Source: Candidatus Zipacnadia bacterium (GTDB lineage Bacteria > Armatimonadota > Zipacnadia > Zipacnadales > UBA5352). Taken from it: 42,012 bases of DNA. Positions 21,491 through 30,862 of this stretch are shown here, piece by piece; positions within the stretch are counted from its first letter, which is position 1; every line of letters begins with the position of its first letter. Below the pieces are notes generated by a model. The model was not told the DNA's origin, ran no database searches, and was given only the letters and a program-made list of their open reading frames with translations. The stretch spans positions 1 through 42,012 of the forward strand of contig JALGTR010000003.1 in assembly GCA_029821265.1 (NCBI GenBank), given 5' to 3'. Position numbers and translations under genes: made by a program.

Positions 21491-22588
21491 ATGCCGCGAC
21501 GCGTGACCGTGTCAGCACCCGGGAGAATCTGCTTGTTCGGCGAGCACCAGGACTTCCTGGGGCTGTCGGTGATAGCCTGCGCGATCAATCTCGACATCCG
21601 CATCACCGGGACATCGCGCGAGGACACGCGCTTCGCCATCGATATGCCCGATCTCGACCGCAGCGATGAGTTCGATGCCGCCCGCACCGTGCCCTATCAC
21701 GGCCGGCGCGACTATATCCGCTCGGCGACCAATGTCTGCAGCCGCAACGGCCTGCAGTTCACGCGCGGCTTCGACTGCACGATTCGCGGCACGATTCCGA
21801 TCAACGCCGGTGCCTCCAGCTCCTCGGCCCTGACCGTGGCCTGGGTCAGCTTCGCATGGGCCACACAAACGGGCGCGCTTCCTGAGAGCCACGAGATGAT
21901 CGCGCGGCTCGCGCACCTGGCCGAGGTCGTGGAGTTCGGCGAACCCGGTGGGATGATGGATCACTACACTTCGGCGATCGGTGGGCTGCTCTACATCGAT
22001 TGCCGCGAGCCGATTACGGTCGAGCGACTACCGGCGAAGCTTGACGGCTTCGTGCTCGGCGATTCGCTGGAGCCGAAGGACACCACCGGGGTGCTCGGGA
22101 AGAGCCGCAGCGCCGTGGAGACCGGGCTTGCCGTTCTGCGGGATCGCGTGGCCGACTTTGACTTTCGGACCACGACGCTTGCCGAGGTCGAGCCATTCCT
22201 GGGGGAGATGCCCGAGGAGAGCCGGCGCAGGATCGTCGCGAACTTCCACAACCGCGAGATCTGCCGCGACGCCCGGAAGCTTCTGTCCCGACCGGCCCCG
22301 GATTCCGAGACCCTTGGGCGGCTGCTCTACGCCCACCACGAGCATCTGCGCGACGGAATCGGCGTCTCGACGCCCAAGATCGATCGCATGCTCGACGCGG
22401 CGATGGAGGCCGGGGCGCTGGGCGGCAAGGTCAACGGCTCGGGCGGTGGTGGCACGATGTTCGCGTACGCTCCCGGGCGGCAGGAAGAGGTCAAGGAGGC
22501 GCTGGACGCCGCGGGTGGTCGCGGGATTATCGTCAGCCCGCGCGAGGGCGCCACGCTGCTCGAGTGTGTCGAAGAGGAGGGGACGTAG
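21491..22588 (+). CDS. galactokinase-like GHMP sugar kinase
   Basis: GHMP-family kinase, 365 aa, that should phosphorylate the anomeric hydroxyl of a sugar. Start is the ATG at 21491 behind GGAGGAAAGA; the track extension to 21242 overlaps the recD2 start. Motif 1, GRICLFGEHQDFLG, matches galactokinase GRxNLIGEHTDY with the Glu-His-x-Asp sugar contacts kept. Motif 2, PINAGASSSSAL, binds ATP phosphates. GMMDHYTS carries the catalytic-base Asp. Motif 3 is GKVNGSGGGGTMFA. Galactokinase, galacturonokinase or arabinokinase activities are all possible. Two phosphohexomutase genes follow (GTG 2 bases after its stop), so the operon probably supplies activated sugars. Confidence 0.88.
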   Translation: MPRRVTVSAPGRICLFGEHQDFLGLSVIACAINLDIRITGTSREDTRFAIDMPDLDRSDEFDAARTVPYHGRRDYIRSATNVCSRNGLQFTRGFDCTIRGTIPINAGASSSSALTVAWVSFAWATQTGALPESHEMIARLAHLAEVVEFGEPGGMMDHYTSAIGGLLYIDCREPITVERLPAKLDGFVLGDSLEPKDTTGVLGKSRSAVETGLAVLRDRVADFDFRTTTLAEVEPFLGEMPEESRRRIVANFHNREICRDARKLLSRPAPDSETLGRLLYAHHEHLRDGIGVSTPKIDRMLDAAMEAGALGGKVNGSGGGGTMFAYAPGRQEEVKEALDAAGGRGIIVSPREGATLLECVEEEGT

Positions 22589-22590
22589 CG

Positions 22591-23973
22591 GTGAGTTCGC
22601 TCAGCGCCGAGGCCAGCAGACCGCTGAAGATCACCATCGGCGGAGTGCGCGGGGTGGTCGGTGAGACGCTCACGCCCGACCTGCTCGTGAACTTCAGCCA
22701 GGCTTTCGGAACGTGGGTCGGTGGCGGGCGCGTGCTGATCTCACGCGACACGCGACCGTCCGGGCGCATGGTCGCCCACTGCGTTACCTCCGGGCTCATA
22801 GCCACCGGCTGCGAGGTCGTCGATCTCGGCATCTGCCCGACCGCGGCCCTCCAGCTCGCCGTCCGGCAATCCGAGGCCGTCGGTGGCATCGCCATAACCG
22901 CCGGGCACAACAACGCCCGCTGGAACGCGCTCAAGTTCTGCCGCGATGACGGAATCTACCTCAACCCGCGTCAGGCCCAGGAGCTGCTTAACGTCTACCA
23001 CCAGCGCGAGTTCGCCAAAGCTCCGTGGAATAAACTCGCGCCGGTCGGGCGCGATGACGCGGCGGGCGAGCGTCACCTCGAGGCCGTGCGCGAGCAGCTC
23101 GACGTCGATGCCATCCGGGCCGCGGGCTTGAAGATCGCCGTTGATTGCACCAACGGGGCCTGCTCGCGCTTCACGCCGCGTTTCCTCGCGGACCTCGGCT
23201 GCGAGGTCGTCGCGATCAACGATGATCCCGAGCTTCCATTCCCGCACGAGCCGCGTCCGACGCCCCCCAATCTTAGCCAGCTTCGCGCACTCGTCTCGGC
23301 CGCTGAGGCGGACGCGGGCTTCGCGCATGATGCCGACGGCGACAGGCTCGGCATCGTCACGGAGGCCGGCGAGGCGCCCGGCGAGGAGTACACGCTCTGC
23401 CTTGCCGCCGAGATGGTTCTCGGCCGCGGCGATCCGGGTCCGGTCGTGACGAACCTGTCCACGTCCATGGCCGTGGAGGATGTCGCGTCGAAGTACGGGC
23501 GCGAGGTGATCCGCACCGGCGTCGGGCAGGTCTTCATCTCCGAGGCGGCGGTCGATCATGGCGCGGCGATCGCCGGCGAGGGCTCAGGCGGCATAGTCTT
23601 CCCGCGCATCAACTACGCGCACGACAGCATCGCGGCGCTCGGCCACATCGTGAACCTCATGGCCGAGCGCGATCGCCCGATCTCCGAGCTGATCGCGGAG
23701 ATACCGCGCTACACGATCGTCAAGCGCGAGGTTGTCTGTCCGCCACAACGCGCCTACAGCGCCCTCGAGGAGCTGCGGCGCGGAATCGACGCCCCCTGGG
23801 TCACCGAGACCAACCTCGATGACGGCGTGAAGCTGATAGGCGAGGATCGCTGGGTCCACATCCGCGTATCGATGACCGAGCCGCGCATCCGCGTGATCGC
23901 AGAGGCCGCCGCGGAGGGCCTTGCGATCGATCTCGCCGAGGAGTATGTCCGCAGGGCCAACCGCCTGCTGTAA
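22591..23973 (+). CDS. phosphohexomutase paralog lacking the active-site serine
   Basis: Alpha-D-phosphohexomutase family (PGM/PMM/GlmM) protein, 460 aa, starting at GTG 22591 with GAGGAGGGG upstream. It has the four-domain layout: N-terminal ITIGGVRGVVGETLTP, metal loop HDADGDRLG (~245), sugar-binding loop GEGSGG (~330) and a C-terminal phosphate site (SMTEPRIRV). The near-universal phosphoserine loop TASHNP is here TAGHNN, with Gly105 replacing the serine that carries the phosphate. The next gene, a close paralog, keeps the serine. Ordinary mutase chemistry is therefore doubtful. It may be a regulatory or heteromeric partner, or act on another phospho-sugar reaction. The reading frame is intact, so it does not look like a decayed copy. 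Confidence 0.87.
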   Translation: MSSLSAEASRPLKITIGGVRGVVGETLTPDLLVNFSQAFGTWVGGGRVLISRDTRPSGRMVAHCVTSGLIATGCEVVDLGICPTAALQLAVRQSEAVGGIAITAGHNNARWNALKFCRDDGIYLNPRQAQELLNVYHQREFAKAPWNKLAPVGRDDAAGERHLEAVREQLDVDAIRAAGLKIAVDCTNGACSRFTPRFLADLGCEVVAINDDPELPFPHEPRPTPPNLSQLRALVSAAEADAGFAHDADGDRLGIVTEAGEAPGEEYTLCLAAEMVLGRGDPGPVVTNLSTSMAVEDVASKYGREVIRTGVGQVFISEAAVDHGAAIAGEGSGGIVFPRINYAHDSIAALGHIVNLMAERDRPISELIAEIPRYTIVKREVVCPPQRAYSALEELRRGIDAPWVTETNLDDGVKLIGEDRWVHIRVSMTEPRIRVIAEAAAEGLAIDLAEEYVRRANRLL

Positions 23974-24005
23974 CGTTGCATCGCCGCTGTGCGAGAGGGT
24001 CTGAG

Positions 24006-25370
24006 ATGGCTGGCATCCAGAGCTTGAAGATCGGAGTCTCCGGCGTTCGTGGGGTCGTCGGCCAGTCGCTTACGCCGCAACTCGTCGTGGGATTTGCCGA
24101 GGCCTTCGGCACCTACCTCGACGGCGGCGTGGTCGTGATCGGTCGGGATCCCAGACCGTCGGGCGAGATGATTCTGAACGCGCTGGTCGGAGGGCTGCTC
24201 TCGACCGGCTGCTCGGTGATCGACATCGGGGTCTGCCCGACGCCCACGATGCAGCACGCCGTGGTGGATCTCGGCGCGGACGGTGGGATCGCTGTGACCG
24301 CCAGCCATCATCCGGCGGCCTGGAATGCGCTCAAGTTCTGCCGCGAGGACGGCATCTTTCTCAACCAGCACCAGGCTGAGGAGTTGCTCAACGTCTACCA
24401 TCAGGGCGCCTTCGTGCAGCGCCCACACGACGCGCTGGGGCGGATGGGGCACGACGAGGGCGCGATCAACCGCCACCTGACCAAGGTCCTGTACTCGGCC
24501 GATCTCGACGCCATCTCCAGCCTCGCCCCGAAGGTCGTCATCGACAGCGTCAACGGCGCCGGCGCCGACTGCGCCGAGGGGCTGCTGCAGAAGATGGGTT
24601 GCGAGGTCATCGCCATCAACGATGTGCCCAATGGGCGCTTCCCGCGCGAGCCCGAGCCGATCGCAGAGAACCTCGGACAGCTCTGCGAGGCCGTGCGCGA
24701 GCATGGCGCGGACCTTGGCCTGGCGCAGGACGCCGACGGCGATCGCCTCGCCATCGTCTCCGAGGAGGGCGAGGCCATCGGCGAGGAATACACGCTCGCC
24801 TTCGCCTGCGACGTCATGGCCGAGACCCGCAAGGGGCCGCTGGTTACGAACCTCTCGACCAGCCGCATGATCGACGAGGTCGGCGAACGCCACGGCTGCG
24901 AGGTCGTGCGCTCGAAGGTCGGCGAGGTGAACGTGGTCGAGACGATGCTCGCCGTCGATGCGATTGGCGGCGGCGAGGGCAACGGCGGCGTAATCGACCC
25001 GAATCTGCACTACTGCCGCGACAACCTCGCCGCCATGGCACTGATCCTCGGTGGCATGGCCAGACGCGGGATCACGATCACGGAGTGGAAGCGCACATTC
25101 CGCCCCTCGGCGATCGTCAAGGAGAAGCTCCCCTGCTCCGCAGGCATGATCGGCCGCGCGATTCTCGCGCTGCAGCGCCACTACGAGGGCCAGACTCTCG
25201 ACCTCACTGAGGGCGTGAAAGCGTTCTTCGACGGCGACGCATGGGTGCACGCCCGGCCCAGCAACACCGAGCCGATCATCCGCGTTGTGGCCGAGGCTGA
25301 TGACCACGCCACCGCGCGCTGGCTGGCGGATGAGGCCGTCCAGGTCGCGGCACAGGCCATCGAGGGGTAG
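24006..25370 (+). CDS. phosphoglucomutase/phosphomannomutase family protein
   Basis: Phosphohexomutase of 454 aa that should interconvert hexose 1- and 6-phosphates (glucose, mannose or glucosamine not resolved). The track's TTG at 23976 is replaced by the ATG at 24006 (MAGIQSLKIGVSGVRGVVG). The phosphoserine loop is TASHHP with Ser100, the metal loop QDADGDRLA near 240, the sugar loop GGEGNGG near 325, and the phosphate-binding RPSNTEPIIRV near the C-terminus. It shares long near-identical segments with the preceding gene, such as WNALKFCR(D/E)DGI and ELLNVYHQ, so the pair came from tandem duplication. The end of the operon is marked by a strong hairpin. Confidence 0.92.
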   Translation: MAGIQSLKIGVSGVRGVVGQSLTPQLVVGFAEAFGTYLDGGVVVIGRDPRPSGEMILNALVGGLLSTGCSVIDIGVCPTPTMQHAVVDLGADGGIAVTASHHPAAWNALKFCREDGIFLNQHQAEELLNVYHQGAFVQRPHDALGRMGHDEGAINRHLTKVLYSADLDAISSLAPKVVIDSVNGAGADCAEGLLQKMGCEVIAINDVPNGRFPREPEPIAENLGQLCEAVREHGADLGLAQDADGDRLAIVSEEGEAIGEEYTLAFACDVMAETRKGPLVTNLSTSRMIDEVGERHGCEVVRSKVGEVNVVETMLAVDAIGGGEGNGGVIDPNLHYCRDNLAAMALILGGMARRGITITEWKRTFRPSAIVKEKLPCSAGMIGRAILALQRHYEGQTLDLTEGVKAFFDGDAWVHARPSNTEPIIRVVAEADDHATARWLADEAVQVAAQAIEG

Positions 25371-25454: not shown

Positions 25455-28400
25455 CTACGGTAGCCGCAGGGCCCGGGCGCGGCCGCCAGCGCCCGCGACG
25501 ATGACGTCCTGGCCGCCGGCGGCCCCGAGCTTCGCGGCCGCAAGGTCGAGGATCGCCCGGCCTATCTCCTGGCGCGCAACCACCGTGCCGTCGTCAGCTC
25601 GAAGCGCGTAGACGGCGCCGTCGTCGCATCCCGCCGCGACCAGCCGACCGTCCGGGCGGTCCAGCAGCGCCAGCGTGCCCACCTGATTGGGCAGGCCGGT
25701 GCGCCAGATCATGGTCCCATCCCCGTCGAGGCAGTAGACGTTGAACGACATCGATGAGGCCAGCACCTCGTGCGCGCCGTCACCGTCAACGTCCGCACAG
25801 ATCACGTCCGTGACCTCATCGCCGGTGTTGACCACCCACAGGCGGTCGCCGTCGGAGCTGTACGCCTGCACCGTCGTGTCCGCACCGCCGAAGATGACCT
25901 CCAGCCGGCCGTCGCCGTCGAGGTCGCCGGTCGTCACGGCGTTCGCGTCCGGTCCGCCTGCCGTGCGCACCTGCCATTTCCGGGTGCCGTCCGGGTTGAC
26001 GCAGTGCCACCAGTAGTACTCCGTGCCGCAGATCACCTCGTCGCGGCCATCGGCGTCGAGGTCGGCGGCGGCGCCGGCGGTGGAGCCGTGGACGCTCTCG
26101 TAGTGCCAGATCTCCTCGCCGGACGCGTCGATCGCGTAGTAGCGCCAGCTGTCGGCGCCGGCGACCACGACCTCGCTGCCATCGCCCGTCAGGTCGGCGG
26201 GGAAGACCACCCGCACGTGCGGCGTCCGCTTGTAGTATGGCACCTCGAACCGCCACATCCGTTCGCCCGCGGAGTCGATCGCGATCACCTGCGAGTTCAT
26301 CGTGCCTGCGACGATCGAGGGGGTGCCATCTCCGTCGAAGTCCACGGCGGCCACGGAGTTGACCTCGTGGTCGCAGTCGTGCGTCCAGCGCAGCGAGCCG
26401 TCGGCGTCGAGGCAGTAGACCTTCCCGTTCGAGTTACCGCCGATCGTCTCGTCGATTCCGTCGCCGTCAAGGTCCGCGGCGATCACTGAGTTGAAGACGT
26501 AGCCGACCTCGCCCTCCGACTGCGCGGCCAGCTCCGCCAGACCCTCGCCTGAGCCCCAGAGCATCAGTTCGGCCATGTAGACGGCCGTGCCCGGCCGTGG
26601 CGTGAGCACCAGGCGCAGCTCGTCGGCCTCAGCGTCGAGGCCGTCGAACTCGTACTCCTCCGGAGCGTGGCCGGGATCGCCCCAATTACCGTGCATCTCG
26701 TCGTCGGTGAAGTCAACGACCGTCCGGCTGTCCTGCTCGAATCCATCGGTGGACGCCAGCAGCCGAATGCGCCCGAGCTGGAAGAGCCTGTCCTTGCTCG
26801 AGGAGGTCGCGAACCAGGCCCGCAGGTTCATCCGCTCGATCGTGTAGCTGTCGCGCAGTTTCAGCGTGAGCGTGACCTCCTGGTCGTCGTCCCACATGAC
26901 CGCGCTCTCGGTGCCCTCGACCGAGCCGTCGAATGCGTTAGCGAGCTGATTGCCGCCCGCCCGCTGCGAGAAGACATTGACCGGTAGCGGTGCAGGATCC
27001 GCCGACATCTCCACGACGGCCTCGACCGACTCCGGCCGCCCGGGGTTGCCTGTCAGCAGGAAACTGTCCGGGCGCTCGAGGTAGCTCCATAGCTCGGCCA
27101 TGGGCTCGGCCTCGGCCCCTGCAGCGGCGGGAGGCGTGACCGGTGGAGCGGCCGCGATGACGCTGCGCATCATCTCGGCGATCTCCTCGCGACCAGCGGT
27201 GTTGCCAAGCTCCACGGTCTCCGTCTGCTGCTCGGTTCCGATGGAGGAGACCACCGGCGTGTGCACGAGGACCGTGCCCATCCCCAGGTCGGCCTCCACG
27301 TCCGCGCCCTGCTCAATGGTCCTCGTCTCTCCGAGGGCAGTGACCTCTGTCACGCCCACGCCCCACATCCGTTCGGGCGTCATGACCGCCATCTCCCCGA
27401 GCGCCGAGGCCGCGCCGGGCAGCGTCAGCCGGCCGTCTGCATCTCTGACCGACACGATCACCGGATCGCCCTCGCCGGTGATCGCAATGGAGCTGTCGTT
27501 CAGGCGTGTAACCTCAAGCGCCGACGGCTCCTCGCCTGACGCGTGCAGCACCGTGAAGAGCACCACCTGCTCGCCGGGCTGCAGCGTCGCATTGACGATG
27601 CCCTGCATCGACTTCACCACCGGCTCATCGGCCCACGGATAGCTGCTCCAGTTCTTGCCGGTGTACTCGTCCTCATTCACGATGCAGTGGGTGTCGGGGG
27701 TCATGACGAAGGCCGCGTGCTGACCGTCCTGCTCGACACGCAGCGTCGAGCCCACAAGCTCGGTGTCACCGATGGTCTGCCAGACTGCGCGGAAGCTGTA
27801 ATCGCCCGGCTCTGTCGCGACCATGCGGTCCGCCACGACGAACATGCGGTCCTTCAGCCACATCACGTTGCGGTGCCAGTCCACCCCCGCATAGGCCCGC
27901 ATGACCGTCTGCGACGCCCCCATGCCCTGCATATCCGCAAGGTTCTCCAGTTCGGCGTAGGCCGGAACACTTTCCGACTGGCCATCGCGCAACACGAGCA
28001 TACCGTTGTGGTACTTGGGCAGCGACTTGATGTAATCGGTGTCGGCCAGCCAGATACGCCCATTCTCGGTCCACTGCAGCAGGCAGTTGCCGTCCATGTG
28101 CCCGTGGCCGCCCAGCGTCAGCCCGTCGAGCAGCAGGTACGCCGCATCCTCGTCGAAGCTGTTGCGCCAGGTGATCTTGTCGAACGCGTGCGACTGCTCC
28201 ACGTGCTCGCTGCCACTGAAGCTCTCATACCACATCTCATCGAGCCCATAGCCCACCGTTTCGAGCAGATCGCTCGGCAGCGTTGTTTTCGCGTTCGACC
28301 CCAACGAGTACTGCGACAGTGCAAGCTGTGGTCGAGTCTGCATCTTCTTCTCAATCGCCCACTGGTAACGCCCGTCGCGATACCACCACTCGGCCATGCG

Positions 28401-30773
28401 CAGAATGCTCAGCTCGCGGCCGATGTAGCCCCAGCCGCCAACGTCACCGTAGGGCACCTGGTAGCCGAGGTTGTTCATCGTCAGGATCGCATACTCGGCG
28501 TTCTTGCGCGCGTTCCCATTCTCGAAGTAGCGCAGGTCCGGGCGTGCCAGCGAGTACATCATCGTGTGCCCCAGCGTCAACCACTGGTAGGTGTTGCAGT
28601 CGCAGTGCGGCTTCGAGGCGTCGAGCTGAAACTGGAAGGTCCCATCCGCCACGCGGATCCACTCTTCGCCCTCGACCGCGTCGTAGTAGCGGCTGAAGTA
28701 CTGACCTGCATACAGGCAGCCCAGCGCAGGGAAGGTCTGGTGATTGAACCGCACGTGTGTGCTCGAGGCCGAGGCCGACTTCTGCGGCCCAAGCTCGCTG
28801 ACCCACCGGAACAGGATCTTCGTGACCTCCAGCCGCTCCTCGTCGCTGATCGCCGGGCTCTCCTCGACGGCGTCCCATGCCATGAAGTTCGGGGCGATGT
28901 GAAAGTCCGAGTCCATACCCCACGGCCCGCCGTAGGTGTCCGGATCGGACAGATACCACTCGTACGTGCGCTTGATCATCCACACGTACATCTGCGCGTA
29001 CTCGTCCCTGCCGGTCAGCGCGTAGTTCAGGCCCTGGTTCTGCGCCATCGCGAACAGCCCGCGTGTCCCTGCCCGCTCCAGGTGGCTCTCGCAATCGGCC
29101 CTGGTGCTCTCGAACCACTCCTCGTCGAGGTCCATCGTGAACCTATTGCCCCAGGCCTTCTCCGCTTCGCCCGTCAGCTCAACCTCCAGCAGCGACGGCA
29201 GCGTCAGCGTCTCGCCCGGCTGGATGTGCGCCCGCAGCGCGCGAAGACCTGCCCTCGCGCCCTCGATGTCAGATGCGCCGATGCAGATCAGATTTCGCCC
29301 TGTACCCCACGGATCAGAGACTGTGCGTAGTTCGTAGCCGCCATCACCGGGGTAGACGCCATCGGCGAAGCACTGCTGGTGGGAGTAGGGATACAGCAAC
29401 GCGCGGTTGTTGACGATGCTTCCGAGCATGATCGCGTTGGTCTCCGCCAGGTCCTCGTCGCCCACCTCGTCGGCATCGACGATCTGCAGTGTCGCCCCGG
29501 TCGCCTCCTCGATCGCGGAGGCCACCTCCGCGGCCACTTCACGCCACGCATCATCCGCCGGCGTGACGATGATCGCCGCAGCCTCGCCGTCGTCCACGAG
29601 CGTGGTCTCGGGATACAGCCTCTTCGGCTCGGTCACCTCGCTGAAGCTCTTCAGTGTGGACTGCCCGGTCCTCACGTTGTCGATGTACATGTCGATTGGC
29701 GTCGCCGGGTCGTGCGCGCCGACGTAGAAGCGCAGGTAGGTCACGCCGACCGGCTCGTCACCCTCCAGTCGCGACGTCTCCCACGAGATCCCGCGGTATG
29801 ACATCCCCGGGTACAGCTCGAATGTCGTCATCTCCGGCCCGAGTTGCCCGCTCCACGACGTCCAGCTGAGCACGCACTCATCCTCGGCATTGTAGCCCCG
29901 CACGTACAGCGCTTCGGATACATCCGGCGTGGAGGTAGCGGCATCGAACTTGAGTGTGGTGTTGTCCGTGAAGTCCGTGGCGGGGATCTGCATCCCCACG
30001 CACAGGTAGGAGTTGCCCTCGGCGTCCTCCGGCGTCGTCCCCGAGAGGTGAATCGCCGCTGCGCCCTCAGTCACGTGGTCGGGATCGTCGACGGCCTCAA
30101 GTGAGGCGTCCGCCCAGTCCTCGCCGAGGTCGATCGACATGCCCTGGGTGCTCTCACATGAGTTCAGCAGCACCTCATCGCCCACATTCCCGCTGCCCGA
30201 GATGCGGATATTGTCCACGTACATCGCGAACTCCGTCCCCGCCTCATGGGTACCGGTGTAGAAGCGAAGCCGGACAACCGCGCTGTGGTCATCGTTTTCG
30301 ATCTCCTGCGGCTCCCACTTGAGCTGCCCGGACTGCTCCGGAACTGCTTCGAAGCGCTTCATGCCCTCCTCGAGCGGGTGCGCCCAGTTCTGCCAGCTCA
30401 GCACGCAGCTTCCGTACTCGTCGTAGCCCCGCACGTACAGCGCGCCCGACGTCTCGGGCATGGTCGTCCCGGCATCGAAGATCAGCGTCCGGTTGGTGAA
30501 GTCCGTCGGCTCGATCTGCAGGTCAAATGAGACGTATGAGTTCCCCGTCGCGTCCTCCGGAGACCTGCTGGAGATTCGGATGCTTCCGGCGCCCTCTGTC
30601 ACGTATTCGGCGGCACGCGCGATCACCAGCAGTGTCTCGGGGTTGTCCGCGGCAGTGGTGACCTTGACGCCGTCCAGCGTTTCACAGCCATGCAGCAGCG
30701 TGGTGTTCTCCTGCGCAGAAGATGCAGCGGCAAACGCAGTGAGCAACGCAACGATCGCGATAAGGGACCTCAC
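25455..30773 (-). CDS. giant exported heparinase II/III-like protein with beta-propeller
   Basis: Exported multidomain protein, 1772 aa. The track ORF begins at 30824, but the GTG at 30773 lies six bases after GGAGGGG and opens a clean signal peptide (RSLIAIVALLTAFAAASSA|QE). In order: two homologous beta-sandwich repeats (about 25-200 and 200-385, each ending MY(V/I)DN(V/I)R); an alpha/beta domain like those preceding some glycosidases (~385-530); an alpha-helical toroid (~545-870); a heparinase II/III-type beta-sandwich with GGHGHMDGN near 890; an F5/8-type (discoidin) domain (~1265-1420); and an FG-GAP-like propeller of about seven blades with DxDGDG calcium loops (~1430-1772). Together these point to a secreted lyase binding and cutting an acidic polysaccharide. 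Substrate is unknown, and catalytic residues were not verified. Confidence 0.87.
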   Translation of the reverse strand: MRSLIAIVALLTAFAAASSAQENTTLLHGCETLDGVKVTTAADNPETLLVIARAAEYVTEGAGSIRISSRSPEDATGNSYVSFDLQIEPTDFTNRTLIFDAGTTMPETSGALYVRGYDEYGSCVLSWQNWAHPLEEGMKRFEAVPEQSGQLKWEPQEIENDDHSAVVRLRFYTGTHEAGTEFAMYVDNIRISGSGNVGDEVLLNSCESTQGMSIDLGEDWADASLEAVDDPDHVTEGAAAIHLSGTTPEDAEGNSYLCVGMQIPATDFTDNTTLKFDAATSTPDVSEALYVRGYNAEDECVLSWTSWSGQLGPEMTTFELYPGMSYRGISWETSRLEGDEPVGVTYLRFYVGAHDPATPIDMYIDNVRTGQSTLKSFSEVTEPKRLYPETTLVDDGEAAAIIVTPADDAWREVAAEVASAIEEATGATLQIVDADEVGDEDLAETNAIMLGSIVNNRALLYPYSHQQCFADGVYPGDGGYELRTVSDPWGTGRNLICIGASDIEGARAGLRALRAHIQPGETLTLPSLLEVELTGEAEKAWGNRFTMDLDEEWFESTRADCESHLERAGTRGLFAMAQNQGLNYALTGRDEYAQMYVWMIKRTYEWYLSDPDTYGGPWGMDSDFHIAPNFMAWDAVEESPAISDEERLEVTKILFRWVSELGPQKSASASSTHVRFNHQTFPALGCLYAGQYFSRYYDAVEGEEWIRVADGTFQFQLDASKPHCDCNTYQWLTLGHTMMYSLARPDLRYFENGNARKNAEYAILTMNNLGYQVPYGDVGGWGYIGRELSILRMAEWWYRDGRYQWAIEKKMQTRPQLALSQYSLGSNAKTTLPSDLLETVGYGLDEMWYESFSGSEHVEQSHAFDKITWRNSFDEDAAYLLLDGLTLGGHGHMDGNCLLQWTENGRIWLADTDYIKSLPKYHNGMLVLRDGQSESVPAYAELENLADMQGMGASQTVMRAYAGVDWHRNVMWLKDRMFVVADRMVATEPGDYSFRAVWQTIGDTELVGSTLRVEQDGQHAAFVMTPDTHCIVNEDEYTGKNWSSYPWADEPVVKSMQGIVNATLQPGEQVVLFTVLHASGEEPSALEVTRLNDSSIAITGEGDPVIVSVRDADGRLTLPGAASALGEMAVMTPERMWGVGVTEVTALGETRTIEQGADVEADLGMGTVLVHTPVVSSIGTEQQTETVELGNTAGREEIAEMMRSVIAAAPPVTPPAAAGAEAEPMAELWSYLERPDSFLLTGNPGRPESVEAVVEMSADPAPLPVNVFSQRAGGNQLANAFDGSVEGTESAVMWDDDQEVTLTLKLRDSYTIERMNLRAWFATSSSKDRLFQLGRIRLLASTDGFEQDSRTVVDFTDDEMHGNWGDPGHAPEEYEFDGLDAEADELRLVLTPRPGTAVYMAELMLWGSGEGLAELAAQSEGEVGYVFNSVIAADLDGDGIDETIGGNSNGKVYCLDADGSLRWTHDCDHEVNSVAAVDFDGDGTPSIVAGTMNSQVIAIDSAGERMWRFEVPYYKRTPHVRVVFPADLTGDGSEVVVAGADSWRYYAIDASGEEIWHYESVHGSTAGAAADLDADGRDEVICGTEYYWWHCVNPDGTRKWQVRTAGGPDANAVTTGDLDGDGRLEVIFGGADTTVQAYSSDGDRLWVVNTGDEVTDVICADVDGDGAHEVLASSMSFNVYCLDGDGTMIWRTGLPNQVGTLALLDRPDGRLVAAGCDDGAVYALRADDGTVVARQEIGRAILDLAAAKLGAAGGQDVIVAGAGGRARALRLP

Positions 30774-30862
30774 GGGGCACCCCTCCAGGTGGTCTTGAGC
30801 GTCGTTCTTTCGTGTGGCGTGCATCCTCGTTCCGAGACGCGAGAGCGCTCGTCGAAGTTTCG

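Follow-up and report, generated by a model that had tools for sequence, protein, structure and literature searches.

Phosphohexomutases form a ubiquitous superfamily of which an active-site phosphoserine is regarded as the defining residue. Here we analyse a stretch of 42,012 nucleotides from Candidatus Zipacnadia bacterium (Armatimonadota; assembly GCA_029821265.1, contig JALGTR010000003.1; hereafter the window), in which two adjacent phosphohexomutase genes, A and B, are encoded in tandem and the protein of the upstream gene A carries a glycine where that serine is expected.

Known relatives

The closest described proteins are the archaeal-type phosphoglucosamine mutases and PGM-like 1 (TIGR03990; structures 1wqa, 9du5, 2f7l and 9ix8). 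Both A and B exceed the cutoff of this family, and A shares its fold and the conserved substrate loops. The 9ix8 protein is a homotetramer, arranged as a dimer of dimers, with a TXSHNP motif (PMC11641776). Compared with these mutases A lacks the phosphoserine, most of the A-type copies elsewhere also lack metal ligands, and A adjoins an active paralog.

An inactive member of the superfamily is known from vertebrates, where PGM5 (aciculin) has no measurable mutase activity but intact substrate binding; it is a eukaryotic, structural protein that keeps a phosphorylatable phosphoserine, Ser121 (PMC7761743). The same pattern of a mutase fold with retained binding and lost activity may apply to A, which differs in being bacterial, in being encoded together with an active mutase and in having lost the serine, whereas PGM5 is inactive despite its presence. 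Dead paralogs that are retained with an active one and activate it in a heteromer are known from the trypanosomatid AdoMetDC-prozyme (PMC5201418) and deoxyhypusine synthase (PMC3663545). These belong to other enzyme families and are eukaryotic and non-operonic, and for them complex formation and activation are proven, whereas for A and B both are proposed here. A second mutase-like protein of the superfamily, the glucose-1,6-bisphosphate synthase of subfamily cd05800, controls mutase activity through the bisphosphate (PMC9426568), but it belongs to another subfamily and has active phosphoryl transfer, while A has no phosphoserine. Inactive phosphohexomutases and dead-paralog activators are thus already known. 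In the searchable literature, whose coverage is incomplete, we found no earlier description of a serine-less or heteromeric phosphohexomutase, and no precedent for a serine-less bacterial clade that is co-retained with an active twin.

The gene pair

Gene A (22591–23973, + strand, 460 residues) starts with GTG, an in-frame GTG at 22564 being a possible alternative, and is assigned as a pseudo-phosphohexomutase from its open reading frame, Pfam and TIGR03990 matches and an AlphaFold2 model. Gene B (24006–25370, + strand, 454 residues) encodes by open reading frame, Pfam and TIGR03990 a catalytically complete partner of the Arch_GlmM type. The two proteins are 47% identical and both frames are intact, in agreement with the tandem of a TAGHNN and a TASHHP copy described in the first-pass annotation. 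The position of the phosphoserine, expected in a (T/S)xSH motif, is occupied in A by Gly105 (codon GGG, 22903–22905, +) and in B by Ser100 (codon AGC, 24303–24305, +). A retains the DxDxDR metal signature as DADGDR (23329–23346, +), which many A-type relatives do not, as well as the sugar-binding glutamate in GEGSGG (23575–23592, +) and the phosphate-binding Arg, Ser, Thr and Arg in RVSMTEPRIR (23863–23892, +). The intact frame and metal loop noted earlier for A are therefore accompanied by both binding loops. Pfam PGM_PMM domains I–III are matched in A and I–IV in B; domain IV is unmatched in A although A has the phosphate loop. The TIGR03990 scores are 452 bits for A and 479 for B, with an NCBIfam cutoff of 439. 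This equivalog model would label A a phosphoglucosamine mutase, which is probably a misnomer, and because it gives A-type proteins that name we flag a systematic misannotation.

Both genes were found in all ten genomes of the family. In the 26 aligned A orthologs of the order the glycine (Gly104 in the numbering of the A1 alignment, which is one lower than that of Gly105 and is used for residues below) is invariant, as are His105, Lys114, the metal aspartates, Glu329, Arg424, Ser426, the TEP motif and the GEGSGG loop. The glycine is thus neither recent nor an error, and the sequencing error that the first-pass annotation had named as a possible refutation is excluded. Decay to a pseudogene is also ruled out by the intact frames and by a ratio of nonsynonymous to synonymous substitution rates (dN/dS) within the family of 0.157 for A, compared to 0.170 for B. 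Purifying selection on A is as strong as on B.

Loss of catalytic and retention of binding residues

Homologs were collected by a scan of GTDB genomes and by surveys of 291 Armatimonadota, 396 Acidobacteriota, 241 Verrucomicrobiota and 246 Planctomycetota genomes, most of the genomes surveyed being metagenome assemblies. Whole-genome surveys that did not use the motifs of the scan (Acidobacteriota and Verrucomicrobiota) agree with it but began from an A-type profile. Each copy was scored at ten catalytic and six binding positions, and the counts of A-type copies refer to sequences and not to independent events. The canonical catalytic set was present in none of 109 upstream A copies, in 96 of 100 downstream B copies and in all 36 single homologs. 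All six binding residues (R19, E329, R424, S426, T428 and R433) were present in 105 of the 109 A copies, a count that is biased for loci from the GTDB scan since its motifs include part of the phosphate loop. In Verrucomicrobiota the A copies deviate at 4–7 of the ten catalytic positions, and their binding residues are mostly intact. Including this phylum, as sums over two scored tables, the canonical set is found in 0 of 140 A and 124 of 129 B copies.

Among the 140 A copies the serine position holds Gly in 114, Ser in 25 and Thr in one. This last sequence, from Verrucomicrobiota (L317), breaks the rule that a non-serine residue is always glycine. The metal ligands D246 and D250 are kept in 58 and 52 of 109 copies; in relatives the former is replaced by Asn or Ser and the latter by Ser, Glu or Gly, and K114 is lost in many. 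The route to inactivation would thus vary by lineage, with changes of the serine or the threonine before it, of the catalytic lysine or of the metal aspartates. In the Zipacnadia route (TGDDDKQ, n = 28) Ser is replaced by Gly and residue 312 is Gln, with metal loop and lysine intact. The TSNDDKE route (n = 16) keeps the serine and has Asn for the first metal aspartate, and in TGNDSNQ and similar types (TGNDSxQ) serine, metal ligands and lysine are all lost. The Bryobacteraceae-type A copies (n = 7) keep serine and metal and have GASH with an Arg at 312; in a study of herring PGM5 covering 20,000 sequences the position of the threonine that is Gly in GASH was always Ser or Thr (PMC7761743). Along the whole protein only three differences between A and B are fixed, namely the serine, position 312 (Q/E) and position 331 (S/N). 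Among the positions at which B is invariant and A varies are K114, D246 and D250.

Distribution and pairing

The A copies form a clade of paralogs (Shimodaira–Hasegawa-like approximate likelihood ratio test, SH-aLRT, 99) that occurs in Verrucomicrobiota, Armatimonadota and Acidobacteriota (Aminicenantes among them) and rarely in other groups, such as a single pair seen in Myxococcales (L156). By its named hits the window lies close to Candidatus Zipacnadia and candidate division WS1 of the Armatimonadota. Matches in the 246 Planctomycetota genomes were nearly all one copy per genome; of the typed loci there, L321 and L322 are single and canonical and L320 is a pair. A lies nearly always directly upstream of B, and the recurrence of the pair in several phyla makes it far from chance.

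Whether a TAGHN copy always has a serine-bearing partner was the question posed by the first-pass annotation, and the answer is nearly always yes. We typed 89 distinct serine-less copies, in this set all with glycine, and 78 of them are followed immediately and on the same strand by a serine copy. Of the rest, one has a partial downstream copy, five are at a contig edge and five have room for a partner: L237 in genome G588, with A and B on different contigs, the Fimbriimonadaceae-like L149, L262 and L272, and L054 in genome G038. A is co-retained with its active paralog, with G038 as the clear exception. In five Verrucomicrobiota genomes (G694, G701, G703, G762 and G839) A and B are both present on different contigs; these unlinked pairs are the best evidence here for a joint need rather than mere co-transcription.

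Another 22 tandems carry serine in both copies. Trees place their upstream member in the A clade, the placement being unsure for several serine-bearing copies on long branches. A single origin of the glycine is not supported, as serine copies occur within the A clade and a glycine copy (L260) is nested among them.

Some loci depart from the simple arrangement. A second tandem in Fimbriimonadaceae-like Armatimonadota (L262:1431-4251 and L272:2588-5267) combines an upstream TSNDDKE copy with a B-type copy without serine (TSGHQ, TGGSQ), so that both copies look impaired. The spacing between A and B is 1.2–1.5 kb in several Zipacnadia relatives (gaps in L045 and L046), and in L051 (6584-7780) the gap holds a same-strand gene whose product has a right-handed beta-helix domain (PF13229). 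In L145 (7446-10051) A and the beginning of B share one open frame, which then breaks, which could be an assembly error or a near-fusion; the contig name gives a coverage of about 3.

Pairwise identities of A and B are correlated over 73 pairs (mirror-tree r = 0.92, shared organismal history included). The A–B junction has a 4-nucleotide ATGA/GTGA overlap in 12 of the 73 pairs and a 1-nucleotide overlap in three, which suggests translational coupling.

Structural models

AlphaFold2 predicts for A a confident and complete mutase fold (mean predicted local distance difference test score, pLDDT, 92.6; predicted template modelling score, pTM, 0.91). The model is closest to 9du5, 1wqa and 2f7l, with a template modelling score of 0.90 to 9du5 over the full length. 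A mixed oligomer of A and B is plausible, given that the related 9ix8 protein forms a homotetramer. An A–B fusion sequence, obtained by reading through the A stop codon in loci where both genes are in one frame, was also modelled and gave no confident placement of its two parts (pTM 0.54).

Possible roles of A

Taken together, the comparisons indicate that A has lost catalytic residues and kept binding residues, is under strong selection, is almost obligately retained with B and has co-evolved with it. By sequence A would be the inactive paralog of a working enzyme. We infer that it is inactive, that it forms a physical complex with B, that it acts in regulation and that its ligand is a sugar phosphate. 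The explanation that we favour, with a probability of about two in three, is that A is a phosphosugar-binding pseudo-mutase and a non-catalytic partner of B, whose cleft controls or stabilizes B. B would act as a normal mutase, using phosphoserine and metal to interconvert sugar 1- and 6-phosphates via the 1,6-bisphosphate. In its paralog A the phosphoryl transfer chemistry would be gone with the phosphosugar-binding cleft retained. The two may form a mixed oligomer, as archaeal relatives do with themselves, in which A would use its cleft to sense or hold a phosphosugar, with the 1,6-bisphosphate as a candidate, and thereby stabilize or control B. A pseudoenzyme subunit or allosteric partner had been suggested from the locus itself, and the absence of a complete catalytic set in all A copies, the kept binding residues and the near-obligate pairing with an active B lend this comparative support. 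More tentatively, and with odds somewhat below even, this would be a heteromeric phosphohexomutase found across several bacterial phyla, in which the catalytic subunit is gated by a serine-less one that holds sugar phosphate or 1,6-bisphosphate by non-covalent binding. To our knowledge there is no other example of such gating in the phosphohexomutase superfamily.

Several observations weigh against a non-catalytic partner of B. A at this locus retains the metal triad and the lysine, which makes some chemistry possible, and the 25 serine-bearing A copies might retain activity. Genome G038, which is 90% complete, carries A and no B was found in it; A is unlinked in Fimbriimonadaceae-like genomes, and the serine has been lost from the downstream copy too in L262 and L272. 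The fused A–B model, a single-chain model from 12 rows with no control, reached a pTM of 0.54 and gave no direct evidence of contact. The lack of a confident interface in this model, the kept binding residues beside lost catalytic ones and the separate locations of A and B in the five Verrucomicrobiota genomes would suit a protein that senses or binds phosphosugars and serves the pathway of B without forming a complex, for example by moonlighting regulation or by protecting a bisphosphate pool, with the pairing explained by shared pathway and operon only. The strict order of A before B in several phyla, the 4-nucleotide overlaps and the oligomeric archaeal relatives fit a stoichiometric complex better, and we consider a role without complex formation rather unlikely.

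An altered reaction that needs no phosphoserine, such as phosphate release from or isomerization of a sugar bisphosphate, had also been raised in the first-pass annotation. The Zipacnadia copies keep DADGDR, K114, H105 and the binding loops, and glycine is the replacement in 114 of 115 non-serine copies, suggesting a constraint at this site. Yet most relatives lost the metal ligands and many lost K114, with different residues affected in each lineage, and the A-specific positions reveal no alternative conserved nucleophile. Because these losses are unrelated, an altered reaction is disfavoured and appears improbable, though less so for the A of the window itself, which keeps DADGDR. A purely structural subunit in which ligand binding is gone would account for the lost catalytic residues but not for the six binding residues kept in nearly all A copies, nor for the fact that they are largely retained in Verrucomicrobiota, whose copies were collected independently of motifs, and this option is very unlikely.

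Genomic context

A GHMP kinase gene (galactokinase/mevalonate-kinase-like by Pfam and NCBIfam; 21491–22588, +) precedes the pair, with its stop codon 2 nucleotides before the start of A. The first-pass annotation proposed that this kinase may supply the ligand. Within the order it precedes A in 23 of the 25 loci with enough upstream sequence. Outside the order only one distant case was found (L119), and the kinase is rejected there as a core component of the A–B system; in genome G042 it lies upstream of a lone canonical copy. In other lineages the neighbours include a protein of the glucosamine-6-phosphate isomerase family with an amidohydrolase (L132, and L136 by clustering), nucleotidyltransferases (L118 and L121) and a GlmS-like protein (L066). 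These hint at amino-sugar or nucleotide-sugar metabolism but do not fix the substrate.

The source genome (4.24 Mb, 92.6% complete), in which the locus is on contig 85, contains three further mutase-like genes. Judged by eye from the sequence, contig C135 (L004) encodes a bacterial-type GlmM-like protein and contig C176 (L005) a mutase beside a mannose-1-phosphate-guanylyltransferase-like gene, and with these two it is unlikely that A or B is the only GlmM of the cell. On contig 257 of the same genome (G000; L003:1483-4231) a mutase-like gene with a TASHNP motif and a second GHMP-kinase-like gene face each other on opposite strands. Downstream of the pair the window encodes a probably secreted protein of 1789 residues (25455–30824, −), whose C-terminal beta-propeller is of the FG-GAP/PQQ-like type and matches PF25292, the lambda-carrageenase propeller family.

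Implications

A clade that spans several phyla without the serine that is taken to define the superfamily persists under selection beside an active twin. The A–B pair offers a tractable bacterial pseudoenzyme and enzyme, with natural replicates of inactivation, in which control of mutase activity or of its bisphosphate activator would be directly testable.
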